Part shown: piece by piece, positions 2,907 through 43,276 of the stretch | Position numbering within the stretch: position 1 is the stretch's first letter | Layout of the letters: the number at the start of each line of letters is the position of its first letter | From: Saccoglossus kowalevskii | Lineage: Eukaryota > Hemichordata > Enteropneusta > Harrimaniidae | Assembly: GCF_000003605.2 (NCBI RefSeq) | Contig: NW_003155237.1 | Coordinates: forward strand, 467,338-510,613 | Length of the DNA: 43,276 nt | Direction of reading: 5' to 3' | Translations under genes and position numbers: made by a program | The notes under the pieces: model-generated | Told to the model about the DNA's origin: nothing | What the model saw: the letters and a program-made list of their open reading frames with translations, nothing else | Databases searched by the model: none

Positions 2907-5663
2907 CTGAAAGCGAGAAGAACACAGAGCACAGGCACTGAGTGAGTGATCGGATGAGGCAACTGTTGAAATATGTCCTGAAAGAACAATATCGTTAGCA
3001 AATACATTAACACAACATACCATACAGAATGACAGCTTAAAGCGACAGTATTAGAAATGAACAAGTTATCGATGATAAAATGCAGACGCTTCAATATACA
3101 GCACTAAATAGACTAGAAAACACTAATTAATTTAATTTAATGAATCTAATTTAATGTACTGACACAAACATGCATGGACGAGATATATGGGTCTCATATA
3201 AACAAAGATGGCAACTTTGACTGTTGTGCAGATCAATGAGTACAAACTAAGTTACCAAGTTTTAATTTTTTTTTAGATTATTTGAAGGTATTGAAGAATT
3301 CACCAGCGCCCAGGTCAAATCTCATACTTGTGATTTCCATTAGAAGAGCACATTGGATTGTGGGAAAATCAAAGTTTATCAACACATATGTCGCACATGC
3401 GCAGCACAACGACTGCCGTTCTTTAAGTATGACAGAAACCTCTGCATTCTTATACCAATATGTATAACATTTATAGGCCTTTGGTGTAGACAAGCAGGAA
3501 GAGTTTGAATACATACAAGGTGGATAGCAGTGCAGATATAATATATAAATCTTAATTCTATAACTACAGATTTGATGATAATACAGACATTTTCATAAGC
3601 TTTACATACCATTGCTTTATACAAACAATAGTTACAGCGCCATCTAGTGACATAAAAGGAAACATTCAACAATGGCTACTAGAGGGCACTATTACAACAT
3701 TCATGCACACAGTGTATTTGATGATGAATCCCTTGCCACAAAATAGATATATTGCGTTCTTGAAAAAAATATTAAATATGTGAAATATATGGATTTGTAC
3801 TGTAAAAAATATTCAGTTGTAGCAGGTTAAAAATAAAGGTTATATTTCCCACTGAATTAATTGAATGCTGCTGACAGACACCTATTGTACACCTTTTGTG
3901 CAAATTGCTTGCATGCACTCCCTCAGTTTGTTCTTACTTCATTTCTCACATGGCAAAGAAAAAATAAAACTTTGGTGCACATTTCATTTATGCTTACAGT
4001 GGTACTTGGTCTCAGTAGGGCATGACTGGAATGTTAACTGTCACCACTTTGCATTAAATGCAACTGTTGCAAAGAATGTCAAGTAGTAAAACAAAATTAA
4101 ACAAATGCAATTTTTTGTGTGCTTAAAATGGAAATGCACATCCGATAGAGCAAATTGGACATTTTTATTCTTATTCTTAGCCATTTTGATAATTTTTGTT
4201 TGCTGGCAAATTTGAAACCCTTCATAATTGTTTTTAACTATCAATGAACATATCAAAAACTACATCTCTATTTACAGTTGCAACTTGTTTTAAGAGAAGC
4301 ACATTCTTTGGTGTCCAGCTTGCCAGTTGGGTATAGATGAGAACTTAATGGCCGGTTTCAAACATCAACAAACGAGTCATCACTGAAGTATGTCTATATC
4401 AAAGGCCACATAGGCAATCAGGCCCACTTGCAGACACGCAGCTAGAGAGGTTGTTTTCAATTTGTGAATGCAATTTACAGCAATACCAGGCATGGCATTC
4501 TGAACAGACAACTTGGCAGGAGCTGATGATACCAACGCGTGTCTGTCTAGGCAGAAACTAATTGCAGCAGATGAACACACACAGCTTGTCTGGAGAACAA
4601 GAAATTAGTTTAAACAGAGTGGTCTAACGTGAAACTAGCCAACTGAGAATTACATCCTATGAAGTGCCATTGAATAATTGACACAACAAGCTCATGAGGC
4701 ATATTTTTTCCCCTCAGAGTAGCATCATTTATACAGAGATAAGAATACCAGGAAACAAAGTCATTTTATCATTAGAATTTAAAGAATTAGAGTTAATGAA
4801 AAGCTTGAAAGATTGTACCTGATTGGCTATCCAACCCTAACACCTGATGGTTAAACCAATCACAGAGCAGCTTATTTGTTGATAGTTATTTTTAACATAT
4901 CAAATCCAGCCATGCTTCACCTTTGATTATGTGTTCCCCCTTCACACGACTCATGCTGCTACGCAAAGAAACTAAACAGATATTTAACGTCTACAGCTAG
5001 TTTAAACCAGTAAATCCAGTGTTAAATCTGCAAACCTCATCTACACTGTGAAATGCAGAATAAGAATAACTGTCTAAGAATATCAATTATTCTTAGAAAT
5101 GTAACTGCCCTTGTCCTCAAATGGTAAGCAATCTCAACAATATACACCAGCCACCAGCTGTGTTGCCACATAACTCGGCCTAGTTCAGTACAATGAATAA
5201 AACCACATGTACAGTATATATCATCCACATTGCTAATTAAATGTATATACTGCAAGTAATGACCGTGTACCCACAGCAGGTAGTGTCAGTGTAGTCAATC
5301 GACATGATGCCAATTAATATAATAATAAGTTGAGCCAGTATATACAAGATAGCCTAATGCCAGATTTATTTTATGAAACCAACTATTAAATATTGGTCTG
5401 CTATCTGAGATGTACAAAATGATCCACAGTATTAAAGTTAATATTACTCACAGAAAATAAATAGATGTCAGTCTGATTTATTCCACCTGTTACACAGGTT
5501 CAAATCTGTTTTTTTTTTTGAAATATCAGAAACTGGCTAATAAAAATTAGGTTCTTGCTAATCAATGTGCATGGTTTTCGACATGAAACTAATCACATTC
5601 TTGGATTATCGCAGAGCATCTATGTACCAAATTTCAGTGAAATGCGATAATTAGTATTTAAGA

Positions 5664-6713
5664 TTCTATGAAATACTTTATTTTAGCTTGAATTAATTTT
5701 CACTGAGAAAACTTTATGAGTGTTTTGTATGGAATTTATTTTCACTGATTTTTAATGAGTTGAATGTGAGACATAGGAAAATTAGCAGCCTTTCGGCTGA
5801 GATAGCTCTGCTGTTATTAATGCACATTTCAATTAAAGAACTGAAGATATCATCAGAAAATGAACAATATGTATAGTATTAAAGCAATCAGACTTGCTGT
5901 TTTCAACAAAAATTTGAAAATATAACTTTTTGATCAAAAATATTCATTAAAATTGATAATTGAAGAACAAAATCATCATGAACAAATCTGAGAGAGGTCC
6001 ACATGTAGTACCTATGTGGTATATATATTATCAAAGCAATTAGACTTGCAGTTTTTAACAAGAAGTCGAAAATATCACTTTTTACCAAAAACAACAAAAA
6101 TATTCATGAAAATTAGAGAATTGAAGATATCATCACGAAATGAACAAACATGAGAGAGGACCACATGTAGTACCTAGATATCTAATATCAAAGCAATTGA
6201 ACCTGCGGTTTTTAACAAGAAGTTGAAAATATCACTTTTTACCAAAAATGACAAAAAATATTCATGAAAATTAGAGAATTAAAGATATCATCACAAAATG
6301 AACAAATCTGAAAGGGGTCCACCCAAGGTACCTACATACCAAGTATCAAAGCATTTATGCTAGCGGTTTTCAAGAAGAAGTTGAAAATAGCATTTTTGAC
6401 CGAAAATGATAAAAATATTCGCTATAAATAAGACAATTGAACATGTCCACACGAAATGAACAAATCTGAGAGAGAACCACCCAAGGTACCTTCCTAGAAA
6501 GTTTCACAGCTATACAGTTTGTGGTTTTTAAGAAGAAGTTGAAAATGTAAAGTTGACGACAGCGACAAACAATCAGTAATATTATAAGCTCCGCTTGACT
6601 TCGTCGACAGCAGAGCTAAAAAGTATATTTGCTGAATTTTATTTTCACTGAAGCATCCATTCAGCGAAAATATTGAAAATAAATTCCAAGCGGAAATAAA
6701 GTATTCTACAGTA
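5664..6713. mobile_element. Inverted-repeat (MITE-like) element split by a later insertion
   Basis: The outer parts, 5664-5782 and 6621-6713, together match the reverse complement of the intact element at 17939-18152 from end to end. Shared segments include ATGAAATACTTTATTTTAGC, GTGTTTTGTATGGAATTTAT, GATTTTATTTTCACTG-like and AAATAAAGTATTCTACAGTA. The two halves are interrupted in the A-rich middle by an 838-bp HINE-like element. No coding capacity is visible. Confidence 0.85.
5783..6620. mobile_element. HINE-like element, family 1, copy a
   Basis: It starts with agcagcctttcggctgagat and ends with gcagagctaaaa. Subterminal inverted repeats are TAGCTCTGCTGT (5803-5814) and ACAGCAGAGCTA (6607-6618), perfect over 12 bp. 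Between them are about five tandem units (starts near 5861, 5979, 6141, 6299 and 6457; mostly 158-162 bp) carrying tgaacaaatctgagagaggt and the acctgcggtttttaacaaga-type block. A hairpin GAC-TTC-GTC precedes the terminal CTAA. The plan fits non-autonomous Helentron-derived elements (HINEs, including the oyster 'pearl' type with cores of about 160 bp). The family name is inferred; the structure is seen directly. Confidence 0.75.
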
Positions 6714-6732
6714 TCTGCGGAAAAGTTGAAAA

Positions 6733-11647: not shown

Positions 11648-12361
11648 TTAAATATAGATAAGAATGAAAAACAAATCAAATTGGCAAATATCAAATGCTT
11701 AGTACATACATTCAACCAAGTTTTCTTGTACGAATTAATATGTATTAGATTATAGGCTTGGGCTAGAGTTAGCTAAACACAAATTAACACAAATGAAGAA
11801 TGGCCATAACATACAAAATATCTTGGCCGGAAATAGATCAATGAAGGTACCTTTGCGTTTGGTGTTACATGGATGTACCCAAAATACAAACATATTGCAA
11901 TAGTTTTTAATTTGTTTTCACCTTCTTAGAAGATTTACTCGCAATTCATGATTTTATATTTATGTAGTAGTAAATCATTGCAATCCAGCAAACAAATTGA
12001 TGGCATTGGTATCTGTGTTTTCAACTTGTATGTTGCAACAAGTAATAATACCACAGCGTGTTACATCTCATGAGTAGGGATGATTACAATATTGTTAATA
12101 TGAGAGGTTGGAGGGTGGGGGGCAGGACTATATTTGTTAATACTAATGAGGAACAAAACATTCTTAATTTTATAGCGAATAGAGAGCAGCAAATGCAATA
12201 CAAATATTTAAAATGCAGAAAATTGTCTGGCACATCCACGCATCCTTGTCAACTGTCAACACTCGATGAAAGTAACAATATATACATCTATTGATTATTC
12301 ACAGTAGTACACAGTAATAGACGAAATTTTACACAGAAATTGACAAAGATTTACACCCTAC

Positions 12362-12731
12362 CTTCGCTGCAAGTGGTACCAACAAAACCTGTTGCGGAAC
12401 AGTCGCAGATAAAGCGATTCCATCCCTCACTACAGACACCCATGTTCAGACAAGGATCACTATTGCACTTAGCAGGTTGTGCACTGCAGTAAACTCCTAC
12501 ATCCAGTGCTGCTGTGGTACGAGCAATTTCCGCAAGATCCACAGGGACTCCATTCATTACTAAATCACGCATGCAGCCCACAAATCCAAATCCTAGCATA
12601 CCAGACCATATTTCACGTGGAAGCAACATAGAATTGGACCCAGAATCAATACCACCAATAAATAAACTGCCTTCTAAATCCAGCTGCTTATTCTGTCCAC
12701 CGAGAACAAATGGCATGGTGTCTTCATCAAC
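12362..12731 (-). CDS. NRXN: Alpha-neurexin exon: end of LNS3 and second EGF module
   Basis: This 370-bp exon starts after the acceptor atactag in phase 0 and ends with one base of a codon (phase 1) before gtaggg. It encodes VDEDTMPFVLGGQNKQ, the strand FIGGID, LPREIWSGMLGFGFVGCMRD with the LNS3 C-terminal Cys pair (GCMRD...VGVYC), and then a full EGF module. The EGF part shows all six cysteines in the order C-NSDP-C-LNMGV-C-SEGWNRFI-C-D-C-SATGFVGTT-C. GWNRFICDC closely parallels GWNRYVCDC of vertebrate neurexin EGF2. This module links the LNS1-3 and LNS4-6 halves of the ectodomain. The phase 1 end between EGF2 and LNS4 is typical of module borders. Confidence 0.97.
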
Positions 12732-17938: not shown

Positions 17939-18152
17939 TACTGTAAAATACTTTATTTTCACTTGAAATTTTCGCTATTTTCGCTGAAGGAATGATTCAG
18001 TGAAAATAAAATCCAGCGAATATACTTTTTTTTCGTATATTTTACATTCAACTCATCAAAAAAAAAATCAGTGAAAATAAATTCCATACAAAACACCCAA
18101 AAAGTCTTTTCAGCGAAAATTCATTCCAGCTAAAATAAAGTATTTCAAAGTA
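17939..18152. mobile_element. Intact inverted-repeat (MITE-like) element, 214 bp
   Basis: The left end TACTGTAAAATACTTTATTT pairs with the right end, whose reverse complement is TACTTTGAAATACTTTATTT. Inner segments (ttttcgctgaa, cagtgaaaataaa) are also mirrored, so the whole element is an imperfect palindrome. The T-run at 18026-18033 marks the site where the related copy at 5664-6713 is interrupted. It is non-coding. Confidence 0.8.
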
Positions 18153-23107: not shown

Positions 23108-23489
23108 NNNNNNNNNNNNNNNNNNNNNNNNNNNNNNNNNNNNNNNNNNNNNNNNNNNNNNNNNNNNNNNNNNNNNNNNNNNNNNNNNNNNNNNNNNNNN
23201 NNNNNNNNNNNNNNNNNNNNNNNNNNNNNNNNNNNNNNNNNNNNNNNNNNNNNNNNNNNNNNNNNNNNNNNNNNNNNNNNNNNNNNNNNNNNNNNNNNNN
23301 NNNNNNNNNNNNNNNNNNNNNNNNNNNNNNNNNNNNNNNNNNNNNNNNNNNNNNNNNNNNNNNNNNNNNNNNNNNNNNNNNNNNNNNNNNNNNNNNNNNN
23401 NNNNNNNNNNNNNNNNNNNNNNNNNNNNNNNNNNNNNNNNNNNNNNNNNNNNNNNNNNNNNNNNNNNNNNNNNNNNNNNNNNNNNNNNN
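23108..23489. other. Assembly gap (382 N) inside LNS2
   Basis: An unbroken run of 382 N interrupts the LNS2 coding region. About 30 residues of LNS2 are missing between RKRQQ and the visible SFTSKNLFYVGG. About 90 bp of coding sequence plus at least one intron should therefore lie here, and possibly the small alternative exons of splice site 2. The true length is unknown, since N counts in assemblies can be estimates. Confidence 0.99.
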
Positions 23490-29589: not shown

Positions 29590-30010
29590 GCATATTCTGC
29601 ATGCTGACATGTTATGAAGACAGTCGGATTAGGGTATACCATTGATGATTGTGAAGAAGTTCACATACATACATATCTAGACTGTTTATATATTTATATT
29701 CTATTATCGTAATACAAGAAACAAACACTGAATTCAATCATGAATTCTTTGAATGAAAATACAACTACTCAACCCCAATGGACTTGTACACTGATGTACT
29801 ATATTAATTAATTGTAATGAGAAAGCCAAGCTTTATGAATTATTCAAAATAGTATATATATTGATGAGCATTGTGTTGTCAAAGTTAACTGCGGTACCTA
29901 ATTATTTTCTCACCCAAAACCATCGACAAATTATAGTATGCAAATTTATGTATTAATTTTAAATTATGCTATGGAAAAAGAGGATATTTGTGTTTGTGCA
30001 ACACCAAGAA

Positions 30011-30575
30011 ATTTCAGTTACATCTTGGTACTGAAATTTCAGTTACATCTTGGTACCGAAATTTCAGTTACATCTTGGTACCTCGATTTCAGTTACATCT
30101 TGGTACCTCAATTTCAGTTACATCTTGGTACCTCGATTTCAGTTACATCTTGGTACCTCGATTTCAGTTACATCTTGGTACCTCGATTTCAGTTACATCT
30201 TGGTACCTCGATTTCAGTTACATCTTGGTACCTCAATTTCAGTTACATCTTGGTACCTCGATTTCAGTTACATCTTGGTACCTCAATTTCAGTTACATCT
30301 TGGTACCTCAATTTCAGTTACACCTTGGTACCTCAATTTCAGTTACATCTTGGTACCTCAATTTCAGTTACATCTTGGTACCTCAATTTCAGTTACATCT
30401 TGGTACCTCGATTTCAGTTACATCTTGGTACCTCGATTTCAGTTACATCTTGGTACCTCAATTTCAGTTACATCTTGGTACCTCAATTTCAGTTACATCT
30501 TGGTACCTCGATTTCAGTTACACCTTGGTACCTCGATTTCAGTTACATCTTGGTACCTTGATTTCTGAGCATCGT
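30011..30575. repeat. 25-bp tandem array, 22 full units
   Basis: The unit starts ATTTCAGTTACATCTTGGTA and ends CCTCG or CCTCA. It repeats without a register slip from 30011 to 30560, with a partial copy after it. The first two units have diverged ends (CTGAA, CCGAA), and two units carry cacctt instead of catctt. Because 25 is not a multiple of three and the plus-strand unit lacks stops, all three forward frames stay open and encode the same 25-residue cycle in rotation. That explains the roughly 170-207-residue open frames here, so no gene is called. Confidence 0.97.
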
Positions 30576-32215: not shown

Positions 32216-32346
32216 AGAAGCCTCTCGGTTGAGATACCTGCACATTTCAGTAAATATCACAAAATGAACAATTCTGAGATTGGTCCATATGTATATTTAC
32301 AAAGCAATCAGATTTGCTTTTACCAAAAATGTTTAAAATGTTCACA
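32216..32346. mobile_element. Degraded fragment of HINE-like family 1
   Basis: The sequence gaagcctctcggttgagata is followed by cacatttcag, aaaatgaacaattctgag, ggtccatatgta, aaagcaatcagatttgc and accaaaaatg. It matches the left end and one tandem unit of family 1 with many changes and deletions. No right end is recognisable. Confidence 0.6.
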
Positions 32347-37358: not shown

Positions 37359-39070
37359 TGTATGTAAAAACAGAAAAGCTGCTGCTATCCCATTCCATTA
37401 TAGTGAGGGTATCTACAGATACTGAATAGTTCAGTTTCAAAGAATCAAATGCAAGAATACCTGCAAATACAAAGCTATCAAAAAATCTAATTACTAGATA
37501 ATAAACCAACAAAAAACAAACCATTTCCATGAGATCAACCTTCAATCAAAATACTTGTTCACACTTGTCTTTGTTGTTAAAAAAAAATTTTTCCACGGCT
37601 CATTAAACCTCTGGCTAATATCAGTTGCGTATATATTTAAAATCAAATTAATTAACATAATGGAAAACCTGTGTTCTAATGTTCAAAGTTTATCATTGAC
37701 GTGTTCTGAGAATCTTAAAATAGCTTTTACACTAATTATCCAATATTTTTTCACTTCCCGAACCTTCCTGTCTATCCAGGTGAAGATTAGTGCTGTCATC
37801 ATTCAGCTAAGTCATCAGCTGTTTCTGTTGTTCACAAATTAAGTAAAGTAGTTATTTTCATTTTAGTAAAAATTAAACACATTCCAGTGAATCATATTTG
37901 ACATCCCAGACATAACTACATCTACATTACTTTACATGTTTATTACTACTGCAGTAACAGTTTATTACAAGCAATATACGCAAGTTAGTTGAGAATATCA
38001 CAACCTGAATATCTACATTTATTGATTTGTTATTTGACTATGTATTTTGTGTTTTAACAGATATGCCAGAAATGAAAGAGATTTGTGGTACTCGCAAATT
38101 TTTTTAACATTAGTGACAACAAGCACAACATAAAAGTGTTTTCCTGATGTTTAAGTAGAACCTTTTTGCATTGATTTTAGTGGAGAAAAAAATTAATTAT
38201 TTTCAATTTATTTAATTTAATTTATTTTTAAACCAGGTATTTGTAATTTTTAAAACGATGAACTGAATGTTGACAAATGTCATTGTCAAAACACAGTTCA
38301 CCCATTTAGGTTAGCCACAATAAACAAATTCCTGAAAATGTTCATTATTGACAACAAAAATTCATAAACATTCCATAAAAAATTTTTTTTTTATAATACT
38401 TAGCACTATGCTAAATACTCTCAATATACATAATTATTCATGTATGCATGGAATTGAGTTAAAACTAAATTCTGGACCCTCCAATATTAGAGAGAGATCT
38501 CTATATTAGTGTAAGAAGGGTACCATTTGTAAGTAAGATGCACAGAATATACTACTCTTTTTTATTGGCTAAATCAAATCACATGACCATGTAAAATAAC
38601 CACACAATTGTTTCCCTGAAAAATTTATGAACTTAAAAAACCATTATTGTTGAACATTTTAATTATGCATTCACACTGAACCTCACACGTTCATATTCAT
38701 GGCTATATTTCATTAATTAACATGCACATGAAGAATTAGCTTGAAGAATTTTTTGGAATTTTATAGTGAAAAAAAGTTCAAAACGGAAATACAGACAAAA
38801 TACATGTCTTTTTTACAGTAGGCAATACAAGCTGTAGCTCCAAATAACAGCTATAAATAAGGATTCTTTCATACCATAAAAAAATCAATATTTGACCTTT
38901 TAGGTCGTACTGTGATCTATATTTGCAGGTTTATATTTTTAATTTACAAATAGAACTAGACATTAGTTTTATCAATTATCATGATTAGTAATTTGATAAT
39001 GATGTATATTAATACACACATCACTTCATTTACATTACACAGCAGTTTTAAAGAGATGATTGAAAGTAGT

Positions 39071-39272
39071 TACTGTAAAACCATTTATTTTCACTGACAT
39101 TTAATTTCAGTATTTTGATGTTTCGAGCATATTCAGTGTTTAAATGACACAAATTTGACAAGGGAACAATGAATTTCATTTTCTTGTTAGCGTAGATTTA
39201 ATTTAGCGGATTTAACTTATCAGTGAAAATAGCGAAATTAAAGCCCAGTGAACAATTAATGTATTCGCAGTA
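39071..39272. mobile_element. Inverted-repeat (MITE-like) element, 202 bp
   Basis: The left end TACTGTAAAACCATTTATTT, followed by tcactgacatttaatttc, pairs with the right end, whose reverse complement begins TACTGCGAATACATTAATTG and continues ttcactgggctttaatttcgc. The ends resemble those of the 17939-18152 element, so it may be a distant relative. It is non-coding. Confidence 0.65.
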
Positions 39273-41971: not shown

Positions 41972-42808
41972 AGCAGCCTATCGGCTGAGATAGCTCCGCT
42001 GTTAGCAATGCACATTTCAATTAAAGAACTGAAGACATCATTAGAAAATGAACAATATGAATAGTATCAAAGCAATCGGACTTACAGTTTTTAACAAGAA
42101 GTCGAAAATATCACTTTTTACCAAAAATTACAAAAATATTCACCAAAAATATATTAATTAGAGAATTGAAGATATCATCACGAAATGAACAAATCTGAGA
42201 GAGGTCCACATGTAGTACCTATATATGTAATATCAAAGCAATTGCACTTGCGGTTTTTAACAAGAAGTCGAAAATATCAGTTTTTACCAAAAATGACAAA
42301 AATATTCACCAAAATTAGAGAATTGAAGATATCATTACAAAATGAACAAATCTGAGAGAGGTCCACATGTAGTACCTATATATGTAATATCAAAGCAATT
42401 GCACTTGCGGTTTTTAACAAGAAGTCGAAAATATCAGTTTTTACCAAAAATGACAAAAATATTCACCAAAATTAGAGAATTGAAGATATCATCACGAAAT
42501 GAACAAATCTGAGAGAGGTCCACATGTAGTACCTATATATGTAATATCAAAGCAATTGCACTTGCGGTTTTTAACAAGAAGTCGAAAATATCAGTTTTTA
42601 CCAAAAATGACAAAAATATTCACCAAAATTAGAGAATTAAAGATATCAACATGAAATGAACAAACCTAAGAGAGGTCTACCCAAGGTACATATACACCAA
42701 GTATCAAAGCATTTAGGCTTGTAGTTTTCAAGAAGAAGTCGGACGACGACGACGGACAATCACTCATATGATAAGCTCCGCTCGACAAAGTCGACAGCGG
42801 AGCTAAAA
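41972..42808. mobile_element. HINE-like element, family 1, copy b
   Basis: It has the same left end (agcagcctatcggctgagat) and right end (gcggagctaaaa) as copy a. Subterminal inverted repeats are TAGCTCCGCTGT (41991-42002) and ACAGCGGAGCTA (42794-42805). Tandem units begin at 42049, 42186, 42343, 42500 and 42657; the last three periods are exactly 157 bp and those units are nearly identical. A GACGACGACGACGG run (about 42742-42755) and a hairpin TCGAC-AAA-GTCGA precede the terminal CTAA. No protein is encoded. Confidence 0.8.
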
Positions 42809-42885: not shown

Positions 42886-43276
42886 AGCAGCCTGTCGGCT
42901 GAGATAGCTCCGCTGTTAGCAATGCACATGGCAATTAAAGAACAGAAGATATCATTAGAAAATGAACAAATCTGAGAGAGGTCCACATGTAGTACCTATA
43001 TGTATAATATATCAAAGCAATTGGACTTGCGGTTTTCAACAAGAAGTCGAAAATATCACTTTTTACCAAAAATTACAAAAATATTCATCAAAATTAGAGA
43101 ATTAAAGATATCATTATGAAATGAACAAATCTGAAAGAGGTCCACATGTAGTACCTATATATGTAATATCAAAGCAATTGGACTTGCGGTTTTCAACAAG
43201 AAGTCGAAAATATCACTTTTTACCAAAAATTACAAAAATATTCACCAAAATTAGAGAATTAAAGATATCATTACAA
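42886..43276. mobile_element. HINE-like element, family 1, copy c (runs off the window)
   Basis: The left end agcagcctgtcggctgagat and the subterminal repeat TAGCTCCGCTGT (42905-42916) match copy b. Tandem units start at 42963 and 43122 (159 bp apart). It has the same orientation as copy b and begins about 78 bp after it. The right end lies outside the window. Confidence 0.8.

Follow-up and report, generated by a model that had tools for sequence, protein, structure and literature searches.

HINEs, or non-autonomous Helentrons, offer the closest described systems for the locus analysed here. In the accessible part of PMC7492417, a HINE is laid out as a left subterminal inverted repeat (subTIR) with a complementary internal repeat and a microsatellite, then central satellite-like repeats, and then a right subTIR with a palindrome, and Pacific oyster HINEs of this layout, together with their T-rich targets and their insertions into DNA transposons, have been in print since 2020. 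For Cg_HINE of Crassostrea gigas, the same part gives a T-rich target with no target duplication found, and mentions that some copies sit in other transposable elements, for the most part DNA transposons (data not shown there), and some in non-coding parts of genes. The sections of PMC4067079 at hand likewise describe Helentron and HINE targets as T-rich, with no target modification found.

We compared with these systems a nested pair of elements in a window of 43,276 nucleotides from Saccoglossus kowalevskii, meaning the whole stretch of DNA that was analysed (33.6% GC). Our reading, to which we give a probability of about 95%, is that an older MITE-like element lying between the exons of an alpha-neurexin-like gene later received a HINE in its central A/T homopolymer. 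The interrupted outer element consists, on the plus strand, of a left half at 5664–5781 which ends in an A-run (5778–5781), and of a right half at 6618–6713 which extends from an A-run (6618–6622) to a terminal TA. An uninterrupted copy, which has TA at each end, is found at 17939–18152 (minus strand), and its T-run at 18026–18033, counted as eight T, is the empty site that the sequence-only reading had pointed out. Each half is 88% identical to this intact copy: 104 of 118 aligned positions are identical between 5664–5781 and the reverse complement of 18030–18152 (five gap columns), and 77 of 87 between 6623–6713 and the reverse complement of 17939–18025 (four gap columns), and the halves taken singly gave BLAST E-values of 1.0e-35 and 1.9e-24. 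When the halves were joined at the limits first proposed (5664–5782 plus 6621–6713), they matched the reverse complement of 17939–18152 collinearly across the junction, as that reading had claimed, with 182/208 positions identical, 10 gap columns and a local score of 260, compared with a maximum of 35 among 500 dinucleotide shuffles; the window lends no support to a non-collinear arrangement. MAFFT L-INS-i run on the whole interrupted copy against the empty copy misplaced the right half (6621–6713), which was placed by BLAST and by the joined alignment. Moreover, a motif from the left end of the outer element has two sites in the window, with 0.00 expected from 100 shuffles. Because the 200-bp flanks beyond both outer copies share short local matches only (12/15, and 14/15 with one gap column), the outer element is an interspersed repeat; these flanks, which do not align past 15–16 columns, rule out that the similarity stems from a segmental duplication. 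The nesting, which was read from a single pair of outer copies, one interrupted and the other not, and against which nothing was found, orders the two events as the sequence-only reading had stated: the outer element came first and the HINE second. The search of the window for further outer copies gave just short matches at 38763–38794 and 39071–39105, too short for a junction test; at the latter, TACTGTAAAAC is followed by TTTATTTTCACTGA, a short stretch like the end and the inner motif of the outer element.

At the occupied site, GGAAAA is followed by TT, by the insert running from AGCAGCC to GCAGAGCT, and by AAAAAGTATAT, and the empty copy reads ACGAAAAAAAAGTATAT. The left host half stops at 5781 and the right host half begins within the A-run 6618–6622, so that of the earlier limits of 5782 and 6621 the precision of a few bases was retained and the exact positions were moved. 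The dinucleotide TT at 5782–5783 is absent both from the empty site and from the core that the insert shares with its relatives, and CA stands in its place in both further HINE copies of the window; hence the 3′ terminus of the insert is uncertain by 2 nt. There are nine host A's flanking the insert (4 + 5) compared with eight in the empty copy. Between the two copies of the outer element, a different T-run varies by five bases, and thus homopolymer length at the insertion site is not informative; a target duplication of A's may be hidden inside the homopolymer, and is resolvable only to within it. The earlier description of an insertion into an A-run holds for the plus strand; the insert itself, being on the minus strand, has a T-run as its target. 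Because of this orientation the T-run seen by the insert fits the published Helentron preference, and the A/T-run of eight in the empty copy is a T-rich target of the HINE kind.

The DNA between the halves had been called a complete HINE-like element of 838 bp, and this description was borne out with a length of ∼836 bp (5782–6617, minus strand). The core shared with other copies is 834 bp long (5784–6617), has its 5′ end at 6617 and its 3′ end at 5784, and opens on the plus strand with AGCAGCC at 5784. Read on the minus strand, the insert starts with AGCTCTGCTGTCGAC and continues with a complementary repeat, AGCGGAGCT; the 5′ subTIR AGCTCTGCTGT and this internal repeat together occupy 6587–6617, and AGCTCTGCT faces AGCGGAGCT with one G–T wobble; Cg_HINE and DINE-1 likewise have an internal repeat complementary to the 5′ subTIR. 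A short GTCG-type microsatellite (GTCGCTGTCGTC) follows behind the 5′ end on the same strand (6555–6566), and then satellite-like tandem repeats of ∼158 bp (5935–6546, minus strand), which Tandem Repeats Finder reported as two overlapping rows, 5935–6480 with 3.4 copies and 6029–6546 with 3.3 copies. The 3′ subTIR (5803–5814, minus strand) is an exact inverted match of 6607–6618, the 12 nt being 100% complementary, and its length agrees with the ∼11–15 bp of HINE subTIRs; 11 of the 12 bases of 6607–6618 are inside the core of the insert, and position 6618 belongs to the A-run. The terminal palindrome CAGCC-GAAA-GGCTG (5786–5799, minus strand) is two bases away from the shared 3′ border. The 17-nt palindrome at 5784–5800 folded alone gave a z of −3.43 (2/200 shuffles as stable) and the 32-nt 3′ end at 5784–5815 a z of −1.63 (12/200); the predicted 5′ hairpin (z −1.85; 10/200) is not clearly beyond shuffled sequence, and predicted folding by itself would lend the HINE ends weak support. 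No stop-to-stop ORF of at least 90 codons overlaps 5664–6713, and Rfam returned 0 families at the gathering score. One HINE-terminus pattern had 0 matches in a search of viral contigs that may leave out records of the window's own genome, and a literature text search with HINE terminus strings gave nothing related by title, which is not proof of an unpublished family since sequences rarely stand in running text. Judged from its sequence, the insert is supported as a HINE by its layout of subTIRs, complementary internal repeat, microsatellite, ∼158-bp array, 3′ hairpin and T-run target.

This layout agrees with that of Cg_HINE in the accessible part of PMC7492417, in the 5′ subTIR (11–12 bp in Cg_HINE), complementary internal repeat, 3′ subTIR, palindrome and T-rich target, the likeness being one of layout by description and not of sequence identity to a named Cg_HINE. 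The microsatellite is GTCY, GTCC or GTCK in several Cg_HINEs, and GTCG here fits GTCK; the central repeats are mostly 140–180 bp there and ∼158 bp here. By the account in the same source, Pearl of Crassostrea virginica and Anadara trapezia also contains short arrays of ∼160-bp repeats. In the sections of PMC4067079 at hand, HINE-Mo of Metaseiulus occidentalis and DINE-1 of Drosophila are described with subTIRs, a 3′ palindrome and T-rich targets, as here, and with no target modification found, and their boundaries, compared by description, were also drawn from paralogous empty sites. However, the subTIRs of HINE-Mo are described there as lying 38–60 bp from the 3′ terminus, whereas the subTIR here lies 19 bp from the shared border.

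The inner element is present a second time in full at 41972–42804 (minus strand), not within an outer element; this copy matches the insert core (5784–6617) at 701 of 805 aligned positions with 57 gap columns. A third copy in the same orientation starts 81 bp from the second and is cut by the window end (42886–43276, minus strand). BLAST found no outer-element sequence beside either of these copies. The spacer between these two cores is partly G-rich and the pair could be a tandem insertion; at 32239–32339 there is also a decayed fragment, ∼72% similar to a HINE part near the 3′ end. Between the nested and second copies similarity is uneven, with 69/75 positions identical at the 3′ end and 59/73 at the 5′ end, and the 3′ palindrome is retained in the third copy and, apart from one change in its loop, in the second. 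Moreover, the subTIRs are AGCTCTGCTGT/ACAGCAGAGCT in the nested copy and AGCTCCGCTGT/ACAGCGGAGCT in the second, with one matched change at both ends (C-to-T/G-to-A); the 3′ subTIR of the third copy agrees with the second, and the base in the internal repeat is unchanged between the nested and second copies despite the change in the subTIRs. A need for the 5′ and 3′ subTIRs to match for transposition, and hence to co-evolve, is a rather unlikely account of this pattern. The changed base sits in a CpG at each end, so that two independent CpG decays, a simple alternative, would give the same picture. K2P distances are 0.14 between the two complete HINE copies and 0.13 for either half of the outer element; no ages were derived from them because the copies stem from different source elements.

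The outer element is ∼210 bp long and without an ORF of 90 codons. In the interrupted copy, inverted-repeat arms of 30 nt (5661–5690 and 6687–6716) are 80% complementary. Alignment of end against end gave identities of 33/40 (1 gap column) in the interrupted copy and 33/38 (3 gap columns) in the intact one, so that both copies end in terminal inverted repeats, the alignments extending three bases beyond the borders used in the interrupted copy and one base in the other. The ends of the intact copy read TACT(T/G)T(G/A)AAATACTTTATTTT and are imperfect inverted repeats. The terminal dinucleotides are TA...TA at 17939–18152 and TT...TA at 5664–6713, and a TA target duplication, seen in one of the two outer copies, is therefore possible. 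We take the element to resemble the TA-flanked MITEs of Tc1/mariner type in its imperfect inverted termini of ∼20 bp, the lack of a long ORF and, in the intact copy, the TA ends; it differs from them in that TA stands at both ends in only one of the two copies. It fits a TA-duplicating MITE, and its superfamily assignment is putative. An 18-base motif of the outer element matched two viral contigs, again in a search that may leave out records of the window's own genome, and these matches, just 18 bases with weak scattered similarity, were taken as chance. A literature text search with four outer-element strings found no paper containing at least two of them, which does not prove an unpublished family, given how rarely sequences are printed in running text.

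Scattered laminin-G and EGF ORFs of an alpha-neurexin-like gene occupy the minus strand of 80–23862, where a run of N lies at 23108–23489. All five minus-strand ORFs scanned have laminin-G domain matches, one of them also an EGF domain. For three of them the best match among solved structures is neurexin-1-alpha (3qcw), in residue order: 12351–12731 to residues 538–655, 2452–2994 to residues 657–767 and 80–916 to residues 765–1015 (all minus strand). Because the ORFs at 12351–12731 and 2452–2994 match successive stretches of 3qcw, the nested elements are flanked by two consecutive exon-like ORFs. In the simplest view, these ORFs would be putative exons and the nested elements would lie in an intron of the alpha-neurexin-like gene, the HINE having the same strand as the gene. 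Further along the window, a minisatellite at 30010–30565 has 22 copies of a 25-bp unit with 96% matches.

Because the window offers just two outer copies, it might be argued that 17939–18152 arose by deletion from a longer composite element, in which the inner segment is ancestral and no insertion took place. This is very improbable, since the inner segment has termini of its own and occurs at 41972–42804 and from 42886 without outer flanks, and since a deletion would have to excise exactly one element and leave the A-run; moreover, the break falls in a T-run, the type of target that the accessible text of PMC4067079 reports for HINEs. The claim that the inner segment is not a normal part of the outer element is thus upheld in the window by two copies of the insert without the outer element and one outer element without the insert. 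The 12-bp inverted repeats near both ends might instead suggest that a transposase moved the inner element, which would then be an inverted-repeat MITE, the class in which Pearl was formerly placed. We give this just as little credence, because the repeat is set in from the 3′ border by 19 bp and has the hairpin on its outer side, the complementary repeat adjoins the subTIR at the other end, and no target duplication is resolvable; Pearl itself, according to the accessible part of PMC7492417, was re-categorised as a non-autonomous Helentron.

For the preferred reading, of a HINE nested in a MITE-like element, the order of events would be as follows. The ∼210-bp MITE-like DNA element would have arrived first, between two exons of the alpha-neurexin-like gene, and the HINE would later have inserted into the A/T homopolymer mid-way in it. 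The Helentron family is accepted to move by rolling-circle replication. By analogy with this family, the HINE, which is without a long ORF, most likely owed its mobility to the Rep/helicase of an autonomous Helentron; replication would have started from the HINE 5′ end and terminated at the 3′ hairpin, and the HINE would have been joined into the T-run without target duplication.

HINE insertions in DNA transposons (oyster) and empty-site comparisons (oyster and mite) are published in the accessible parts of PMC7492417 and PMC4067079, and thus there is nothing new in kind at this locus. The nested HINE is a clear example of ordinary, previously described biology; as a single case, it gives the borders of one HINE copy to within a few bases together with its target, and dates the HINE after the outer element.
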